Shown here: positions 1 to 33,587 of the stretch, one piece after another
Layout: every line of letters starts with the position of its first letter
How positions within the stretch are numbered: the stretch's first letter is position 1
From: Candidatus Altimarinus sp.
GTDB taxonomy: Bacteria > Patescibacteriota > Gracilibacteria > BD1-5 > UBA6164
Assembly (NCBI GenBank): GCA_020724225.1
Contig: DYHI01000011.1
Span: 1 to 33,587, forward strand
Reading direction: 5' to 3'
DNA length: 33,587 nucleotides
The notes under the pieces: generated by a model
Seen by the model: only the letters and a program-made list of their open reading frames with translations
What the model was told of the DNA's origin: nothing
The model's database searches: none
Program-made: the position numbers and the translations under genes

Positions 1-71
1 TCTTTACATTCGATCATAGCAACTCATGTAGTTTCTCTAAGTTCTTTAACTTGGGATGCAGTTATGGTCAT
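1..71 (-). CDS. tsf: Elongation factor Ts, N-terminal part (gene runs off the left edge)
   Basis: Minus-strand translation with TGA=Gly: MTITASQVKELRETTGVAMIECK, the EF-Ts N-terminal UBA motif; lies directly downstream of rpsB. Confidence 0.9.
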
Positions 72-97
72 TTTTTATGAAGTTAAAAAATAAATTA

Positions 98-399
98 TTA
101 ATTTTTTTTATTTATCTTATCATCCAATTTATCTATAAATTCTATTCTTATTTCAGCTCAATTATAAACTTTATATCAATAGTAAATACTAATTCATATA
201 TAAATAAGATTTAAAATGATTACAAATGGAGCTAAAATTATAGTAAACATCATCAATGTTGAAATAACAACATATAATCCAAAAAGATACATTCAGTAGT
301 TTTATTTTCCTCAATGAAAAATAATAACACAGCAACTAGGGGAATATAACACAAAGCATTTTTAAAATTATCCTTTGGAGATTTTTCTGATTGTTCCAT
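98..399 (-). pseudogene. Small multi-TM membrane protein (Tic20/DUF4870-like in style) interrupted by one frameshift near 290
   Basis: MEQSEKSPKDNFKNALCYIPLVAVLLFFIEENKTTE, then a shift to YLFGLYVVISTLMMFTIILAPFVIILNLIYIGISIYYGYKVYNGAEIRIEFIDKLDDKINKKN*. Length 302 nt; one extra base restores a single frame. Confidence 0.55.
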
Positions 400-466
400 A
401 AGAAAAAATTTAAGTGATAAAAATGTATAAGATGCTAAATAAATTATCATCTTATACTCATATTAA

Positions 467-1312
467 TTACACATTTTCAGTTTTTTCTTCAACTTTTTTT
501 GCTTTTTTTTCAGTTTTTACATCTTCAGTAGTAGTTTCTACTTTTTTAAAAGATGCTTTTTTTTCTCCAGATATTTTTTTATCTTCAACTTTTTTAACTT
601 TTACTCATTCATTTGTTTTATTTTGAGTTACAGGAGTAGCTCAAACTACTATTGAAGATTTAAGAGTAGATGCTAAATATTGTAAAGATTTTACAGAGTT
701 TGTACTAGCAGGGATACAGTTAGCAACAACCAAATCATCACCATTTGTATTTAATATAGCTATACACTCTATATTTAATGAATTAGCTTCTTTTACAGCT
801 TGTTTTTCATACATTCCATCAACAACAAATATCAAATCTGGAAGTTTTTTCATTTCTTTTAATCATCCATAAGCTTTACCTAATTTTTCAAGTTCAAGTA
901 ATCTAGAAGCTTTTTCTTTCTTTGTAAGAAGTTCTAATTCTCCTAATTCTTGATCTTTTAATAATTTCAAGTAAGTATTTATTCTTCTTCTAATTGTTTT
1001 AAAGTTTGTCAATAATCATGGTACCCATTTTTCAGAAACATAATAATTTCCTGTTTCTTCAGCCAACTTTTGAAAAGCATCTTTTCATTGTAATTTTGTA
1101 GCAACAAAAAGTACTTTTTTACCACTTTTAGTAACTTCATTTAATCTAGCTTTCACTTCTTCTATTTTTTCAACAGTTTTAACAAGATTAAATACATGTA
1201 TTCAGTTAGTAGCTCCGTAAATATATGGTTTCATTTTTGGATTCCAGAAATTTACTTTATTTCATATATGTAACAGATTATCAAACATTGTCTTTAATAC
1301 AGTTTTTTCCAT
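467..1312 (-). CDS. rpsB: 30S ribosomal protein S2
   Basis: 281-aa ORF with TGA=Gly: MEKTVLKTMFDNLLHIGNKVNFWNPKMKPYIYGATNGIHVFNLVKT...PDLIFVVDGMYEKQAVKEANSLNIECIAILNTNGDD...; Lys/Glu-rich C-terminal tail. Confidence 0.95.
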
Positions 1313-1404
1313 TTTTTATTAATTATATTATAAATCAAGGTTTTACCCTTTAAAAAATAAGTCTGTTCTCAAATATTAAACTTGAGATTCACAAAAATAT
1401 TTAA

Positions 1405-2607
1405 TTAAGCAGCAGCTTCTTCAGTTTTAACTTCTTCAGCTTTTACTTCTTCTTTTTTTGTAGTTTTTTTAGTTTTTGGTTCTTCTTTAGCTTCTGAACC
1501 TTCTGTTTTAGGAGCTTCAGTTAAAGCTTTTATAGATAAACCAATTCTTTTTTCATTTGGTTCGAAATTAATGATTTTTACACTAGTTTCTTGTCCAACT
1601 TTTACATGTTCTCTTATATCCTTAACAACACCATGTGATATTTCAGATAAATGTATAAGCCCTTGAATTCATCCATCAAGTTCGATAAATGCTCAGAATT
1701 GTGAAATTCTAGAAATAGGTGCTTTAATAACATCACCAAGTTTGTATTTAGCAGCAAGAACGTCCCAAGGATTTTCTCTAAGTCTTTTAATAGATAATGA
1801 AATTTTTTCACTATCAAGACCAATAACTTTAACTTTAACTTTTTGCCCAACTTTTGCAAATTTAGCTAAGTTTGTAACATGTCCCCAATCAACTTCAGAA
1901 ACGTGAACTAAACCTTCTAATCCGTCAAAAGTAACGAACAATCAGTAAGATAATATTCAACTTACAACTCATTCTACGATATCACCTTCTTTTAATCAAG
2001 CTAATGCTTTTCCTCTCTTTTCTTCTATTGCAGCTTTTTCAGAGAATATAATTTTTTTACCTCCTTCATCTACATTTATTACTTTTACTTTAAAATCAAG
2101 TCATACTAATCCATTTAAATGAGCTAGAATTTTTTCTTGATCTGCTCATTCAACTCTTGGGTAATGAATTGGAGTTAATTGTGATACAGGTATAAATCAT
2201 TTTAAACCATCAATATCAACAAGTAAACCTCATTTATTAGCCTCAGTAGGTTTAACAGTGATAATTTCACCAGATCCAAAGTATTTTCATAAATTTGAAA
2301 GACTTTTGATTTGATTTGCTCTTTTCAAAGACAAAATCAACAATCCTCTTTCAACTGAATCTCATAGAACCATAACTTCTATAGCATCACCTTCATTTAA
2401 TGAATTTAAATCTACAGTATTTCAAAGTTCTTTATTTATAACTAATCAAGTAAATTGATTATTTACATTAACTAATATGTTTTTCTTTTCTACCTTCAAA
2501 ACTGAACCAGTAATAACATCTCCTTCTTGTGGGTATTTAATCTCAGGAGATTCTTTAAATAACTCTTCAAATAGAGATAAGTCTGCATTTTTTGCTTTTG
2601 GTGCCAT
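1405..2607 (-). CDS. rpsA: 30S ribosomal protein S1 (multiple S1 RNA-binding domains)
   Basis: 400-aa ORF: MAPKAKNADLSLFEELFKESPEIKYPQEGDVITGSVLKVEKKN...GLFVTFDGLEGLVHVSEVDWGHVTNLAKFAKVGQKVKVKVIGLDSEKISLSIKRL...; repeated S1 motifs. Confidence 0.93.
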
Positions 2608-2793
2608 TATGCATATAAAATTAAGAAATAAAATAGTGAAATTCTTACAAATTTGACATTTTACAAGGCTTTTGTAATCAAATCGAGAATTTCTTTTTTA
2701 AAAGTTACGAAGTAAAATTTTTATTGAAAAATTTCACTATGATAATTTTAAAATATCACACTTTGGAATCCCATTATGTGAGATTCTTCCTTA

Positions 2794-2828
2794 ATTATTC
2801 ACTATTCATTATTCACTTTTCACTATTT
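2794..2828. repeat. Degenerate heptameric tandem repeat, 5 units (ATTATTC ACTATTC ATTATTC ACTTTTC ACTATTT)
   Basis: Read directly. Confidence 0.8.
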
Positions 2829-2912
2829 TTATGGGGTGCTCGAAGGGGTTCGTCGCCTTTCAGGTCGGACCTCCGAGCCGAAAGACCAGAGCAATGGTCT
2901 TTCTAAAATTTT
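2826..2912. repeat. GC-rich structured element carrying a second copy of the tRNA-His 3' end
   Basis: ttttatggggtgctcgaaggggttcg is also present at the tRNA-His locus (~2996-3021). The rest is GC-rich with a 9-bp hairpin GAAAGACCA-ttgctc-TGGTCTTTC (minus strand). Confidence 0.65.
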
Positions 2913-2999
2913 AAAAAAATTTTACTCTCCTTTCGAACCCCAATTTATTTTTTTGTTCTATAAGCTAATCTTTATATTTCATATTTTTTGTTTATTTTA

Positions 3000-3077
3000 T
3001 GGGGTGCTCGAAGGGGTTCGAACCCTCGACCTCCAGAGTCACAATCTGGCATTCTAACCAACTGAACTACGAGCACC
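3000..3077 (-). tRNA. tRNA-His (anticodon GTG), 3' CCA encoded
   Basis: Minus strand G-GTGCTCGTAGTTCAGTTGGTTAGAATGCCAGATTGTGACTCTGGAGGTCGAGGGTTCGAACCCCTTCGAGCAC-C-CCA: 7-bp acceptor stem, anticodon loop TTGTGAC, T-arm GTTCGAA, extra G-1 opposite C73. Confidence 0.95.
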
Positions 3078-3256
3078 ATATATTTTTCCAATACAACAAA
3101 ATTTGCCTTAGAAATCTAAAGCTATAGAAGTATATAAAAAAGATAGTAATTTGCAAATCTTTTTTATAAAAAATACTACTTTTTTATATAATTACATTGA
3201 CTTTATTTATATAATCATTATATATAATAGATAAACAATAAAATTAAGTAAAAAAA

Positions 3257-3883
3257 ATGGTAAAAATACTTAGATTGTGAAATGATTGAAAATTTCATGA
3301 TGTATCACAGAAACAAGTACAAGATTTAACTATTAGTAAGACATTAAAAAAAATTAATGATCCTTTTTTATGTCAAATTTGAGATTTTGTTTGAAGCTTA
3401 ATAAATCTCCCTGCTAGTTATTGAATAAAATGATCTGTTTTAGTTAAATCAAGTACTTTTTGAATTACTATTGTACAAAGAGCTTCTGTAAAAGATTTTG
3501 CAAAAAAAATAAAAACTCCTTTAGAGTATCACGATTATGAATGGATTTTTAAAAAAACTAATACTCTATCATGAGTTGAAATAAGTTTTGAAGCAAAATT
3601 TTTAGAATTTTGTGTAAAAAAATGATTTCCGATCACAAAAGAAATAATTGAAGCACTTAGAAAATGACAAATATGAAAATTAAGAGAATTAATACCATAT
3701 GATTTCAGTCATCTATTCTCCAGACAAAATTTATCTGATGAATTACAAAATGTAAGTAATTTAACAGAAAAGACACTACAAATAGAAAATTCTAATCAAT
3801 GAAAAAACAGATTTCAAGATAAAAAAATTTGATGACAACCAAGTTTTTTAAATGAAGAATGGTTTGAGAAAAATAACGATTAA
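3257..3883 (+). CDS. Hypothetical protein
   Basis: 208-aa ORF with TGA=Gly: MVKILRLGNDGKFHDVSQKQVQDLTISKTLKKINDPFLCQIGDFVGSLINLPASYGIKG... Confidence 0.8.
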
Positions 3884-4389
3884 TCAATCAAATATTTTGG
3901 ACTTATAAAAAAACTTAAATTTCAATTAGAATTTCATATTTTTCCCCAATTTTCTATGTCAAAATCTATTATAGAAATTCACAAAGTTTCCACTCATAGA
4001 TTTTGATTTCAAGTTAAAAATCTAGATAATTTTGTTATAAAAGGATTATGTCAAACTAAAACAATAGTTTCATTTTTATCATCAACTTTTGAAATTAAAT
4101 CAATATAATAATCCAAAGTTTCAGACATATGATAATCATAAATTCATCTGTCATATATAACTTTTTCATTTATTACATCAAGCTCTTCCCAAAGTCACTC
4201 TAGTGTTTCTCTTGCTCTTACTGCACTACTACAAAGAATTAAATCAGTTTTTAATTCTAGTTTTTTTAGAATTTTTGAAACAAATTTTATTTCTTCAATT
4301 CATCTTTTTGATAATCATCTATCAAAATCAGTATCATAATAATTATCTTTATCAGATTTTGCATGGCGAACTAAGATTATTCTTTTCAT
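3880..4389 (-). CDS. Histidine phosphatase family protein (SixA-like)
   Basis: 169-aa ORF: MKRIILVRHAKSDKDNYYDTDFDRGLSKRGIEEIKFVSKIL...LVGHNPFITKLSRFL...; RHG-type motif LVRHAKS and a second catalytic GHN. Confidence 0.85.
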
Positions 4390-4398
4390 AAAATATTA

Positions 4399-5688
4399 TT
4401 ATACATTAATCAAACTTTTAACTATTTCATTTTTCAAATCTTCAAGTCAAAGCTTTTTAAAACTTGAAATAAAAATAGGTTTATATGTTTTAAATCTTTT
4501 TTTGATATCTTTCAATTTTTTTTCATCAAGTAAATCAATTTTATTAAAAACATAAAGTCTTTTTTGATTTGCTCAAATAGATTCTAATATATCATCAACT
4601 ACCTTTATTTTTTCATCTATCTTTGGATCACTTGTATCAATTACATGCAAAAGTAAATCTGACTCTATACTGTCTTCCAAGGTTGATGTAAAGGCCTTTA
4701 TAAGCGATGGTGGCAAATCTCTTATAAATCAAATAGTGTCATTTAGAAGTATTTCTATTCATTTTTGATATTCACTATTATATTGTCATTCTAAATTTAC
4801 ATCTATATTGTCATCCTCGTGCTTGACACGGGGATCTATTAAATTGTCTTTTCAATTTTTATAGATTCCTGCCTTCGCAGGAATGACAGCAGGAGATTCT
4901 ATCCATAATTTCCCTACTGAAGTTCAAAGTGTAGCAAAAAGCTTATCTTCTGAAAGCACTCATTTATGTGTCAAAGTATTCAAAAGACTTGATTTTCAAG
5001 CATTTGTATACCCTACTATTCATACTGTTGAAAATCATTTTTTCTTTCTTCATTGTCTATGCACTTCCCTTACATGTTCATATTTTTCTAATTCTTTTTT
5101 TATATTTAGTTCCATGTCTCTTAAGTGCCTTTTCATTATCTCCGTATTTGTTTCTCACTTTCATCTTGCTAGTTTTGATCCACCTCATTGCCTTGAAAGT
5201 TCCATACCCATACCAAATATACGAGGTCACATATGCTTTATTGAAGCTAATTCTATTTGTAATCTACTTTCAGTTGTTTTTGCATTTTTTTCAAATATTT
5301 TTAATATGAGATCCACTCTATCCCAAGCTTTTGCTCAAATTGCTCTTAGTTTTTCATTTATATTATAAATCTGATGAGGTTTCAAAATATCTCAAAATAT
5401 AAGAAGTAAAGCTCATGATTCTTTCATTTCTTCAATTATTTCATCTAATTTTCAAGATCATATATAGGTATTATAATCCGGAGTTCATCTTTTTTGAATA
5501 TGTTTAACTACGACTAATCATCAGTAAGTTGAAACTAGATTTTCAAGTTCTACTAGCCTATCTTCCATATTTTCTCTTGCACAGCAAGTCGGTATTATAT
5601 CAGCTATAAAGACTTTTAATTCTTTATTGTCATATTCTAGATTTTGCTGTATTTGTTCTAATTCCCTTTGTGATTTTATTTTTGTCAT
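4399..5688 (-). CDS. hflX: GTPase HflX
   Basis: 429-aa ORF with TGA=Gly; ...MGPRIFGMGMELSRQGGGSKLARGKGETNTE...[32 protein letters not shown]...[27 protein letters not shown]...; P-loop GYTNAGKS and DTIGFI. Confidence 0.93.
4810..4888. repeat. Repeat element inserted in frame in hflX (translated VIPAKAGI...DPRVKHEDD)
   Basis: gtcatcctcgtgcttgacacggggatcta...tagattcctgccttcgcaggaatgaca; contains CCTGCcttcGCAGG and is locally much more GC-rich than its surroundings. Confidence 0.75.
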
Positions 5689-5761
5689 AAAATTATATTT
5701 AATATATATTCTATTATTATAATAAAAACTAAATTTATCAAAATTTAATTACTCTATTTTA

Positions 5762-5790
5762 TTGACTTTTATATTTATTTATGTTTAAAT
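5762..5790 (+). promoter_or_regulatory. Putative sigma70-type promoter for the 5817 gene
   Basis: TTGACT-17 nt-TTAAAT upstream of the ATG. Confidence 0.4.
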
Positions 5791-5816
5791 ATACAAAATA
5801 CTTCTAATTTTTTTAA

Positions 5817-6446
5817 ATGGATTTTTTTATATTTTCTCAAATACCCGAAGACAAGATAAAACATTTCCTTGTAAGTTTATGTTTATTTTTTGTGTTTTAC
5901 TTTTTTAGAAAGTATTATTTGAAAGAAAAATGATTTTTTAAGCCATTTGCATTTGCTCTAAGAGATACTTTGATAATCTGAATATTTAAAGAAATAATTG
6001 ATTTATTTTGATTTTGAAATCCTCAAATTTCAGATTTATTTGCAAATTGATTATGAATATTAATCCCAATTTACATATATTATATCTACAAAGAATCAAA
6101 AGACCTTAAACTATCAAAGTATTTCAGACAAGAAGCATTACTTATAAAAAAACTTGAAAATAAAACTTTTCTTTTATATAAAAGATTTAAGCTATTTTTA
6201 GAAATAAAAGTAAAAACATATATTTTCAAAAGAAAAATACTTTACTATATCCCATCTAGAACAAGGAGTTTTTTATTTAAAAAATCTTTTAATGATTTTA
6301 TTGAAATAATTAAATATTTTATACATTTTAGTATAATCTGGTTTATAAATCTTGTAGTTATGATTGTAAAAATACCACTTTGGGCCGTAAAAGATTCTAT
6401 TACGACATTTATTAAATTTTTTAAGTTTGCTTTTTTAAAAGTATAG
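5817..6446 (+). CDS. Membrane protein (possibly VanZ-like N-terminal segment)
   Basis: 209-aa ORF: MDFFIFSQIPEDKIKHFLVSLCLFFVFYFFRKYYLKEKGFFKPFAFALRDTLIIGIFKEIIDLFGFGNPQISDLFANGLGILIPIYIYYIY... Confidence 0.75.
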
Positions 6447-6475
6447 AGGTAAATAAATAGTAGTAATTCTAAGAT

Positions 6476-6781
6476 TTATTCCGTAAATCTATAAAAATAC
6501 TTTTTATCAACTTTTCCATTTATAATCTCTATTCAATCTTTTTCAAGTAATTCTTGTTTTTCCTTTACTCATCTATTAGTATTGTATCAACTTATTTTTC
6601 AATCATTTGCTACAACTTTATAGCAAGGATAAATTTGGGGTTCTTTGTTTTGTTTCATAATCCATGCAACAGTTCTAGGATGAACTCAAAACTTGTCTCA
6701 AATAAGTTTATATGTTGAAACTTTTTGTTTTGGAATTGTTTGAAGAAATGAGAGGATTTGGAGTATAAGATCTGTTTGCAT
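6476..6781 (-). CDS. MGMT/Ogt-family DNA-binding protein, short (alkyltransferase-like)
   Basis: 101-aa ORF: MQTDLILQILSFLQTIPKQKVSTYKLIGDKFGVHPRTVAWIMKQNKEPQIYPCYKVVANDGKISGYNTNRGVKEKQELLEKDGIEI...; PCHRV-like motif PCYKVV. Confidence 0.8.
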
Positions 6782-6795
6782 AGATTTTATTTAGA

Positions 6796-7989
6796 TTATA
6801 GCATCCCAAAAAGCCAAAGAGGGATTTTATTTTTTTCTCAGATTATTATATCATCTTGAACTAGAAAAGATTCTGTTTTTTTATCTTTTAATTGCTTAAA
6901 AGTCTTATTTTCTCATCAGATTTCAAAGCAAAAATCTCAGATTTTAAAATCTCATATTTTTGAAAACACAAGTTTATTATTAGAATTTTGTATACAATTT
7001 ATAAAAAAAGTTTCTCTAATAGTTGATAAATTTATTTCTTTTAACAAATTTGTATTTACTGCATAAAGTATATTTGTATTATCCAGATAAATCTTTGAAG
7101 TATTTTTCATTATATTATAGCCATCTACATCTTTTAATAAAAATCTGACAAGTCATCATTTTTCTAGTATTTCAAGATATGTATTTACTGTTTTATTGTC
7201 TATCTCTAGAGTTTTTGAGATTTTATTTGAGTTTAACTCTCAAGGCGGAATTATACTTAGATAATTTATAATTTTTTTAAAATATATTAAATTTTCTGTT
7301 TTTACATTGTAATAATTAGCTATATCATCATAAATTGTTTTGTTTATAGTTTCAAGTATTTTTGAATAATCTTTTTGTTTTTCATTTACAAAATATGGAT
7401 AATATCCAGATTTTAAATATTCTTTATAATACATCAAAAAAGGAATATTTGGCAAATTATTAGCTATACTTATATGATTTCTCAATAAATCTTCTATAGT
7501 GATTTTTTCTATTTTGTGATTGTAAACAAAATTTATATATTCCCTTAAAGTAAATCAATTTAAATAATATAGTTTTGCTCTTCTAGATAAATCATAATTT
7601 CATAAAACTAAATCTATACTAGAACTTCATGAAAAAATAATTTGTAATGTAGGAAAACTATCATAGATATTTTTTAGCTCTTGTTGCCAATTTCTGTATT
7701 TATGTATTTCATCTATAATAAGTAATTTTCAATCATATTCTCTTACAAATCTCAAAGCAAAGTCAAACAATTTATTTTCCAGAAAATAAATATTATCAGC
7801 CGAAATATATAAACTAACTCATAAATCTTTTGTTTTTAAGTATTGAAGCAAAAGAGTTGATTTTCATACTCATCTAGGTCAGATTACACCAATCAATCTC
7901 TCTGAAAAATTGATTTCATTATAAAGTTCTCTTTTCTCACTATAATTTGATGCAATTAGATTTTTTTGTATTTCAAAAAATGTATTCAT
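6796..7989 (-). CDS. AAA-family ATPase with DUF4143-like C-terminus
   Basis: 397-aa ORF: MNTFFEIQKNLIASNYSEKRELYNEINFSERLIGVIGPRGVGKSTLLLQYLKTK...LLIIDEIHKYRNWQQELKNIYDSFPTLQIIFSGSSSIDL...LSRRAKLYYLNGFTLREY...; Walker A, Walker B, SGSS sensor. Confidence 0.88.
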
Positions 7990-9175: not shown

Positions 9176-10049
9176 AATCTTCTTTTCAGTCTAACGAATA
9201 AGAAGTTCAATCAGATAAAATAATTGAAAGTATTTTTAATAAATTAATATCATATTCATCATTTCTTTTTAAGATTTGATAATAATTATTATTATTTACC
9301 GTTTTCTCAAATATAGTTTTATACTCAGCCACTATATTTCAATCAGTTATTAATAACGTATCATTTCCATAATTTATAGATTTACAAACTCAAATACATT
9401 CTTTATTATCTTTCCTTTTTACATTATCAAAATCATCTACTATCTCTCATCATTTAATTTCTTTTTCAGTAGTTACTTCATAAAAATCTGTTTCTTTAAC
9501 CACATTACTAGTTCAATAATATTTATTTACAGAAAAAGCAAAGGATAATTTTTGTATATTTTTATATAAATTGTTTTTAATAGATATTTTATTATCTTTT
9601 GCATCAAAAACTATGTCTTTTGATAAATCTTCTATTTTTTTACTTTCTTCTATATATTCATTATGTTTTTCATTACAATTTTGTTTTGAAATTGAATAAT
9701 CATAATAAAATACTGAAAAGAATATTCAAAATACTATTACTCATAGAAATAAAAACGGCAAAATTCTTTTTTTATAATTTACTTTAAATCCAATATTCTT
9801 TGTTTTTCATAATTTTTTTCTTAAATCATCAATTTTTTCTTTATCTTCTTGATTTTTTAAGTTAAATTCTAATATTTTTCTTCAAATTCTATATCTAAAT
9901 ATATAAAGTATTATCGAATATACACTTAATAATATTAAATTTCATACTACTATTTCATCGTCTCAAAAATCTAATAATTTTTCAAAAAAAATCCATCAAA
10001 TTGTCCACAATAATATATATGATACTATAAATAATAATTTTGTTTTCAT
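9144..10049 (-). CDS. Hypothetical protein with three predicted TM segments
   Basis: 301-aa ORF: MKTKLLFIVSYILLWTIGWIFFEKLLDFGDDEIVVGNLILLSVYSIILYIFRYRIG...RILPFLFLGVIVFGIFFSVFYYDYSISKQ... Confidence 0.75.
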
Positions 10050-31836: not shown

Positions 31837-32512
31837 ATTCATAAACTCATTTTTTCATATCAGCAGTTACTTCTTTATCTTTAAAAACTATTACTCTTTT
31901 TTTAAATGCATCAACTATATTTTTATCATGTGTTGCTATAATTATAGTTTTCCCTTCTTTATTTAAGTCATCAAATATTTTCATAACATCACTTGCAGTA
32001 TCTGGATCTAGGTTTCAAGTCGGTTCATCTCATATTATAATATTTGGGTTGTGTCCTAATGCACGGGCAATTGAAACTCTTTGTTTTTCTCAACCTGACA
32101 ACTCAGATACAAATTTATCTTTTTTTGACAAAAGTCCTACTTGTTCCAAACTTTCTGGAACTTTTTTTTGTATATATTTATCATTGTATCCACAAACCTC
32201 CATTGCAAATGCTACATTTTCATATACACTTTTTGATTCCATAAGTTTATAATCTTGAAATACTACCCCTATACTTCTTCTATATGCTCATAATAAATCT
32301 TCATTTAAATTTTTGTACAGAAATCCTCAATTATCCAAAACTACATCTCAAAACTGAGGTTTAAAATCACCTATCAATGATCTAATCAAACTTGTTTTAC
32401 CAGATCAAGAATGACCAATAAAAAAAACAAATTCCCCTGGTTTTATTTCTATATTTACATTTTTTAAGACTATTTTGTTTCAAAATGCTAGAGTTATGTT
32501 GTCGATTTTCAT
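31832..32512 (-). CDS. ftsE: ABC transporter ATP-binding protein, FtsE-like
   Basis: 226-aa ORF: MKIDNITLAFGNKIVLKNVNIEIKPGEFVFFIGHSGSGKTSLIRSLIGDFKPQFGDVVLDN...[38 protein letters not shown]...; Walker A, LSGGE signature, DEPTGNLD. Confidence 0.85.
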
Positions 32513-32554
32513 AAATTAGTTATTAGATTAAAGATTAGAGATTAGAGTTTGGAG
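32513..32554. repeat. Degenerate heptameric repeat, 6 units (AAATTAG TTATTAG ATTAAAG ATTAGAG ATTAGAG TTTGGAG)
   Basis: Read directly; sits immediately before the ftsE start. Confidence 0.7.
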
Positions 32555-32658
32555 TATTCTACATTTTTTATAAGTAAAATCAAACAAAAAAACAAGTTCA
32601 AAAATTATTTTAATAAGGTTAGTTTTTCAAATGAATCTTTTTTCATAATATCAAAATT

Positions 32659-32712
32659 AAATTTTCTTAAAATTGAAAGTAATTTACATTACTTTCAATT
32701 TTAAGAAAATTT
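32659..32712. terminator. Perfect 24-bp hairpin with 6-nt loop downstream of the FISUMP-like gene
   Basis: AAATTTTCTTAAAATTGAAAGTAA-tttaca-TTACTTTCAATTTTAAGAAAATTT. Confidence 0.85.
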
Positions 32713-32752
32713 CACTCCGCGAGAAATAGAACAAAGAGAGCAAAGAGATGAA

Positions 32753-33587
32753 TTAGTTCTTAATACATACTACTGAGAAACCGTAATACTTATTGTAATT
32801 GTGACGAAGTACATTACCACTGACAGAACCCAAGTAACGGAACAATGAATTAGTAGTGGTAAACTCTGTAGATGACCACCAGTAACCGTATGTAGTACGA
32901 ATGTTGAAACTACCATCAGTACCGCGGTAACCTGGAAGAACTGAAACTATTCAAGATAGTTTATTTCAAGTCCATCATGTAGCTCAAGCATTTCTTAAAG
33001 TAGTCCACTGAGCATCTGTGGGTAGATTCCATCAAGTTCACAATTGTCCACATACTGATATTGTTGTATCCTCTACTTGTGTACAACTTGTAGTATTACA
33101 ACTTGCAGGAAATCACATTGATTCAGCCCATGTATATAGTGCTCAATCAGTATTACATATATTTGAGTCATTATTATAACACCACTTTTCTATTGTATTT
33201 GTATCTGATGGTATAGTTGATCAGTTTGCTAACATTGTTCAATGCTTCATATTTGTACTAGTCCAACATTTTCAGTCTGGTCAAAGTAGTGTAGTATATG
33301 TATATCATCATGCTGATACTGTATCTCAACAAGCAAAACTTGGAGTATATGTCTCACAATTAGGTCAACTATAATTTGTATTACATGAAAAGCCACAGTT
33401 TGCAGAATCTTTTATCCAAGATTGATTTGTAGTTGTTGGATTACCTGTTATAAGTGTACATCATGTAGGTAAACAAGTTGGTTGTGTAGAGTTACATGAA
33501 TTTGTTTCTGAAGAAGTTATTTCTTGTTGTACTATTATTGCTCATCATCAGATTCATCATACATTATTGTTTATATAGTTATTTACT
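32753..33587 (-). CDS. FISUMP-like secreted/surface protein, partial (N-terminus beyond right edge); C-terminal candidate variable region
   Basis: 277-aa open frame with TGA=Gly: ...GYTYTTLLGPDGKCWTSTNMKHGTML...ALYTWAESMGFP...VCGQLGTGWNLPTDAQWTTLRN...GYRGTDGSFNIRTTYGYWWSSTEFTTTNSLFRYLGSVSGNVLRHNYNKYYGFSVVCIKN*; matches the family pattern (GKCW..NM, GWxLPTDAxW, YWWSSTE, GFSVxCI). Confidence 0.85.

Follow-up and report, generated by a model that had tools for sequence, protein, structure and literature searches.

A putative variable region at the 3′ end of a FISUMP gene, remote from its diversity-generating retroelement, in a bacterium that reads TGA as glycine

The 59 codons that close a FISUMP gene of Candidatus Altimarinus sp., a code-25 member of the Patescibacteria, very probably form the variable region (VR) of a target of a diversity-generating retroelement (DGR), remote (in trans or orphan) from the reverse transcriptase (RT) and template repeat (TR) that wrote it. 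The segment lies at positions 32932–32753 (minus strand) of the window, the whole 33,587-nt stretch analysed here, which is contig C47 of a 1.17 Mb genome assembled in 54 contigs (94.6% complete). This assignment, made from sequence, rests on the TR/VR pairs of relatives, a shared start codon, the NNY columns and a 3′ motif. A DGR-type VR had been proposed in a preliminary description of this DNA, and the proposal is now supported by DGR RTs in the genome, an alignment to relatives’ TRs, a 27-mer in common with them, the 3′ motif and a purge of TGA-glycine codons. In the proposed mechanism, the DGR RT would copy a TR located elsewhere in the genome, misreading template adenines, and the cDNA would replace the VR segment, turning AAC/AAT template codons into random NNC/NNT codons at the predicted binding face while the A-poor scaffold of the VR would stay fixed. 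The scaffold glycines would be GGT, not TGA, because the A of TGA is mutable. The likeliest source of the VR is a FISUMP-type DGR whose RT is on contig C3 and whose Avd/TR side would lie beyond the end of that contig.

The features of the window, all on the minus strand, are as follows.

32753..33586, minus strand: C-terminal part of a FISUMP (Fib_succ_major) domain gene, code 25, 22 TGA-Gly codons, PF09603 and TIGR02145.
32753..32932, minus strand: putative VR of a DGR, with the codon break where verified VRs begin, NNY at 18/19 AAY columns, and matching composition.
32725..32752, minus strand: 3′ flank element TTCATCTCTTTGCTCTCTTTGTTCTATT of tandem CTCTTTG units, common to verified DGR target genes.
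32659..32712, minus strand: near-perfect palindrome of 54 nt, with a 25-bp stem, a 4-nt loop and a self-match of 96%.

The FISUMP gene matches Pfam PF09603 (E=5.5e-13) and NCBIfam TIGR02145 (E=6e-12). Its stop codon is at 32753–32755, and its reading frame is still open at 33586, where the contig stops short of the 5′ end. A type IV pilin-like N_methyl segment forms the N-terminus in several relatives of this gene, and by analogy with them the window protein probably begins in the same pilin-like manner and would thus be a surface protein. We take FISUMP to be a C-type-lectin-like family. A profile search of solved structures gave no match, and structure prediction from two sequences reached a mean pLDDT of 40, too poor for fold comparison.

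The coding style of this gene changes abruptly near its 3′ end, as the preliminary description had reported, with frame, code, coordinates and codon counts that all proved exact. Codons 219–277, the last 59, contain seven GGT and no TGA, three CGT and one CGC with no AGR, and 15 codons ending in C (TAC x6, TTC x3, AAC x2, CGC, ACC, GTC and CAC). The 41 codons just upstream of the break hold six TGA, a single arginine codon (AGA) and one C-ending codon. Over the entire gene fragment, TGA accounts for 22/25 glycines in the body versus 0/7 in the tail (Fisher p=4e-5), and C-ending codons for 10/218 versus 15/59 (p=1e-5). None of 7047 sliding 59-codon windows in the 23 other genes of the contig had at least 14 C-ending codons without TGA, the maximum being nine C-ending codons; the break is therefore not chance. 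The altered segment is C-terminal in its protein, as is typical of DGR VRs.

Verified VRs for comparison came from a script that sought segment pairs with mismatches at A in one copy, run on 48 family genomes and later on the class; AT-rich palindromes and opposite-strand duplicates were discarded as by-products. It yielded more than 20 TR/VR pairs in relatives, with FISUMP or other targets, differing almost only at template adenines and found in both code-25 and standard-code members. The FISUMP pairs are listed below.

G039:C16: 19 A-mismatches and 0 others over 179 nt.
G024:C17: 20 A-mismatches and 1 other.
G003:C24: 18 A-mismatches and 0 others.
G023:C8: 20 A-mismatches and 1 other.
G037:C27/C58: 12 A-mismatches and 0 others; a second VR on another contig, 14 and 0.

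The second VR of G037 is a remote target, like that of the window. RT homologues (E<=1e-20) occur in 71/353 class genomes, only some of the 71 having been examined for a TR. On contig G021:C23 (L031, 6893–7935, minus strand), some 50 bp separate a FISUMP gene from the degraded FISUMP-type RT that follows it at the contig end; no TR was found on that contig, and either a true rearrangement or joining across VR/TR during assembly could account for this order.

The verified VRs and the window tail share their start codon (GxR), and the FISUMP TRs of relatives with a C3-type RT align with the tail codon for codon, save for gaps of one to two codons. Variable columns were defined as the 19 that are AAC or AAT in at least two of three close TRs. 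At these AAY columns the window has NNY in 18/19 and NNC in 10/19, against NNC in 3/32 elsewhere. The NNY count (p=0.02) is a weak test, because FISUMP tails without a DGR also favour NNY at those columns; the fractions of C-ending and A-ending codons separate the two classes better. The C-ending fraction is 0.25 in the window, 0.17–0.34 in verified VRs and 0.02–0.07 in FISUMP tails without a DGR; the A-ending fraction is 0.15, 0.03–0.13 and 0.23–0.39, respectively. A TR-type 27-mer, GGTAACCGYAATACYGATGGTAGYTTC, is present in 3/353 class genomes: it is exact in G021 and G032 and has three mismatches in the window, all at adenines (A to T, A to G and A to G). The closest relatives of the window VR by scaffold are G032:C37 and G021:C23. 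A search of viral contigs for the TR-type motif and for FISUMP relatives returned none, and a scan of genome contigs yielded a single relative (L135), whose contig has no TR. Two FISUMP paralogues are encoded in the same genome.

G000:C13 (L010), 1447–2319: FISUMP paralogue whose tail has no TGA, but NNT in place of NNC; perhaps an old VR.
G000:C1 (L011), 5413–7413: FISUMP paralogue whose tail has five TGA and no VR style.

Searching the window revealed neither RT nor TR, in agreement with the preliminary description, which had suggested looking across the genome for a DGR-clade RT and for a near-copy of the tail that would be its TR. RTs of this kind are present at two loci, on C33 and C3; no near-copy was found in the assembly of 54 contigs. 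The C33 locus is a complete DGR.

G000:C33 (L008), 59–4287: type IV pilin-like/FGE-sulfatase-like target, Avd-like gene, RT and TR.

Between its VR (~1511–1635) and its TR (4163–4287, which overlaps the RT gene at that gene’s 3′ end) there are differences at 10 template adenines and a few others, mostly at the 3′ edge; its Avd-like protein matches NF033474 with E=1.5e-10, below that model’s cut-off. The RT on C3 is ~70% identical to the RT of the G039 FISUMP-DGR and carries the catalytic motifs to be expected, with YVDD and LPIGNLTSQ. It lacks about the first 50 residues, as the contig end cuts the gene where relatives have Avd and TR. Repeat-like inserts lie between conserved motifs of this gene (L009, G000:C3 ~9480–9900, minus strand), and the enzyme may be inactive because one insert contains an in-frame TAA; the RT inserts in G003:C82 are in frame and stop-free. 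Relatives of the C3 RT clade usually have the order target, Avd, TR, RT, the TR lying a short way upstream of the RT start, and the missing TR is therefore expected just beyond the end of C3. A degenerate-pattern search for the cognate TR in the 94.6%-complete assembly, allowing changes at any TR adenine plus three mismatches, recovered only the window itself. A FISUMP-type Avd gave only weak matches in the assembly, the best of which is a free-standing 116-aa protein encoded on C34 without an adjoining RT. The window VR also suggests that these bacteria, probably episymbiotic, maintain more than one surface protein under diversification, perhaps several.

Directly after the stop codon of the window gene is a 28-nt element that was first noticed as a match common to the flanks of verified VRs. 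A pattern built from these flank elements has ten sites in the 48 family genomes and none in a reversed control. Nine of the ten are directly 3′ of variable-type genes, six of them being the window and verified VRs. Four sites were outside the pattern building: those of G003:C7, G007:C1 and G047:C17 directly follow variable-type lectin-like genes, one of which is then followed by an avd-like start, and the G036 site looks like a low-complexity chance match. A looser 7–10-nt periodicity after VRs may serve as a lead: its mean run is 3.3 in 45 verified VR flanks of the class, 1.1 after 896 other ORF ends and 1.1 after TRs, for a score devised after the flanks had been seen, with VRs not all independent and a window value of only 2. 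Tandem 7–10-nt units resembling CTCTTTG or CTATTTG occur directly after DGR target genes at L035, L036, L074, L033, L034, L106, L107 and other loci, in code-25 and standard-code members of the class, and were not seen after TRs.

Further downstream, 41 nt after the stop codon, is the 54-nt palindrome, an inverted repeat 3′ of the VR such as is expected of DGR targets. The 102-nt flank folds at -31.9 kcal/mol, and an Rfam search of 32500–33000 gave no match. A DGR 3′ hairpin/cruciform and a transcription terminator are equally possible identities for the palindrome. In the BPP-1 mtd DGR of a Bordetella phage, efficient homing requires an inverted repeat immediately 3′ of the VR (Guo et al. 2011, PMC3240598). 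That system likewise has its VR at the 3′ end of the target gene and variable codons of the AAY type; its target is Mtd rather than a FISUMP protein, its stem is 8 bp, GC-rich and closed by a GRNA loop, whereas the window has an AT-rich 25-bp stem, and the window alone has tandem CTCTTTG units separating VR from palindrome.

The DGRs described in Patescibacteria/CPR (clade 2, PMC8144416) are alike in lineage group, C-terminal VR and adenine-directed differences, and their RT/Avd/TR organisation is that of relatives of the window genome. The window differs from them in that its VR is not beside its RT and its host reads TGA as Gly. The family FISUMP-DGRs of G039:C16, G024:C17, G003:C24, G023:C8 and G037:C27/C58 agree with the window in target domain, RT clade, variable columns and the codon at which the VR starts; the 3′ motif of the window is also found in those of G039, G024, G003 and G037. 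They have their TR and RT in hand, whereas the window VR is remote. VRs away from their RT are a class that the survey of Roux et al. 2021 (PMC8144416), by its authors’ account, could not detect. Surveys that require RT and VR on one contig miss such targets, which the codon break, NNY columns and 3′ motif make recognisable from sequence in fragmented genomes.

Several other readings must be weighed against a remote VR served by the C3 element. The segment could have been written by a DGR that is now broken or lost, so that the gene is no longer diversified, a tentative view to which we give somewhat less than even weight. It is favoured by the failure to find a TR in the assembly, by the TAA-bearing insert that interrupts the C3 RT, and by the paralogues, of which that on C1 does not have the VR style, through loss or because it never acquired it, and that on C13 shows it only in part. 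Against it, the window tail has gained no TGA or AGA and keeps NNC at 10/19 variable columns, which argues that the writing is recent or maintained; moreover, the half that the C3 element lacks would begin precisely where the contig stops. The intact DGR on C33, with its pilin-FGE target, is a most implausible source, even though the assembly showed no other intact DGR: the FGE-type segment encoded by its TR has no counterpart in the window VR, and mutagenic retrohoming needs TR/VR identity.

Two further readings dispense with a retroelement. The FISUMP C-terminus could have been acquired horizontally from a standard-code bacterium, since the absence of TGA, the CGN arginines and the additional C-ending codons would resemble foreign DNA. 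We consider this very unlikely: the break lies inside one domain, at the start codon of the VRs in verified pairs, NNY codons stand at the TR-Asn columns, and in the family’s DGR loci TGA is used in target bodies and RTs while being nearly absent from TR/VR. Codon selection or chance, with no DGR link, has hardly any credibility, for although codon style can vary within genes, the other genes of the contig offer no comparable window, and the position, codons and 3′ flank of the tail match those of verified VRs. A remote DGR VR accordingly remains the preferred reading of the segment.

In a host reading TGA as Gly, the mutable A of that codon had led the preliminary description to predict a purge of TGA-Gly from the VR. 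The purge proved real across code-25 DGRs but not absolute, as four TGA codons are left in TRs. In a sample of 19 code-25 DGR templates, with two doubtful genomes left out, TGA makes up 4/91 glycines (4%; expected about 49), against 407/751 (54%) in target bodies (p=1e-22); the pooled codons have common ancestors, so that the independent evidence is weaker than the purge p-values indicate. Templates are poor in GGA as well (5/87 GGN in code-25 and 0/51 in standard-code members), and Arg is shifted from AGR to CGN; the TGA purge thus forms part of a wider tendency for fixed positions to avoid A. In the same family, 18/37 Gly of FISUMP tails that lack a DGR are TGA, and the FISUMP domain itself is thus not the cause.

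A literature search of partial coverage returned no paper on the interaction of TGA recoding and DGR templates. Our broader proposal joins two parts and, taken as a whole, has in our judgement an even chance of being right: that recoding and retroelement diversification are at odds, TGA with its mutable adenine being selected out of DGR templates in TGA=Gly lineages, producing recoding-poor TR/VR islands, and that the undescribed tandem 7–10-nt element directly 3′ of VRs in this class acts as a homing or target-site signal. Recoded bacteria offer an example, open to testing, of how a single mutational mechanism may hold back a reassigned codon. The sampled VR retains three of the four template TGA codons and has TGT in place of the fourth (Gly to Cys), so that the cost of TGA in templates is directly seen. 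This change belongs to the TR of G021:C22 (L076), which has two in-frame TGA-Gly codons, one of them changed to TGT in the VR, so that a DGR is seen to have rewritten a reassigned codon.
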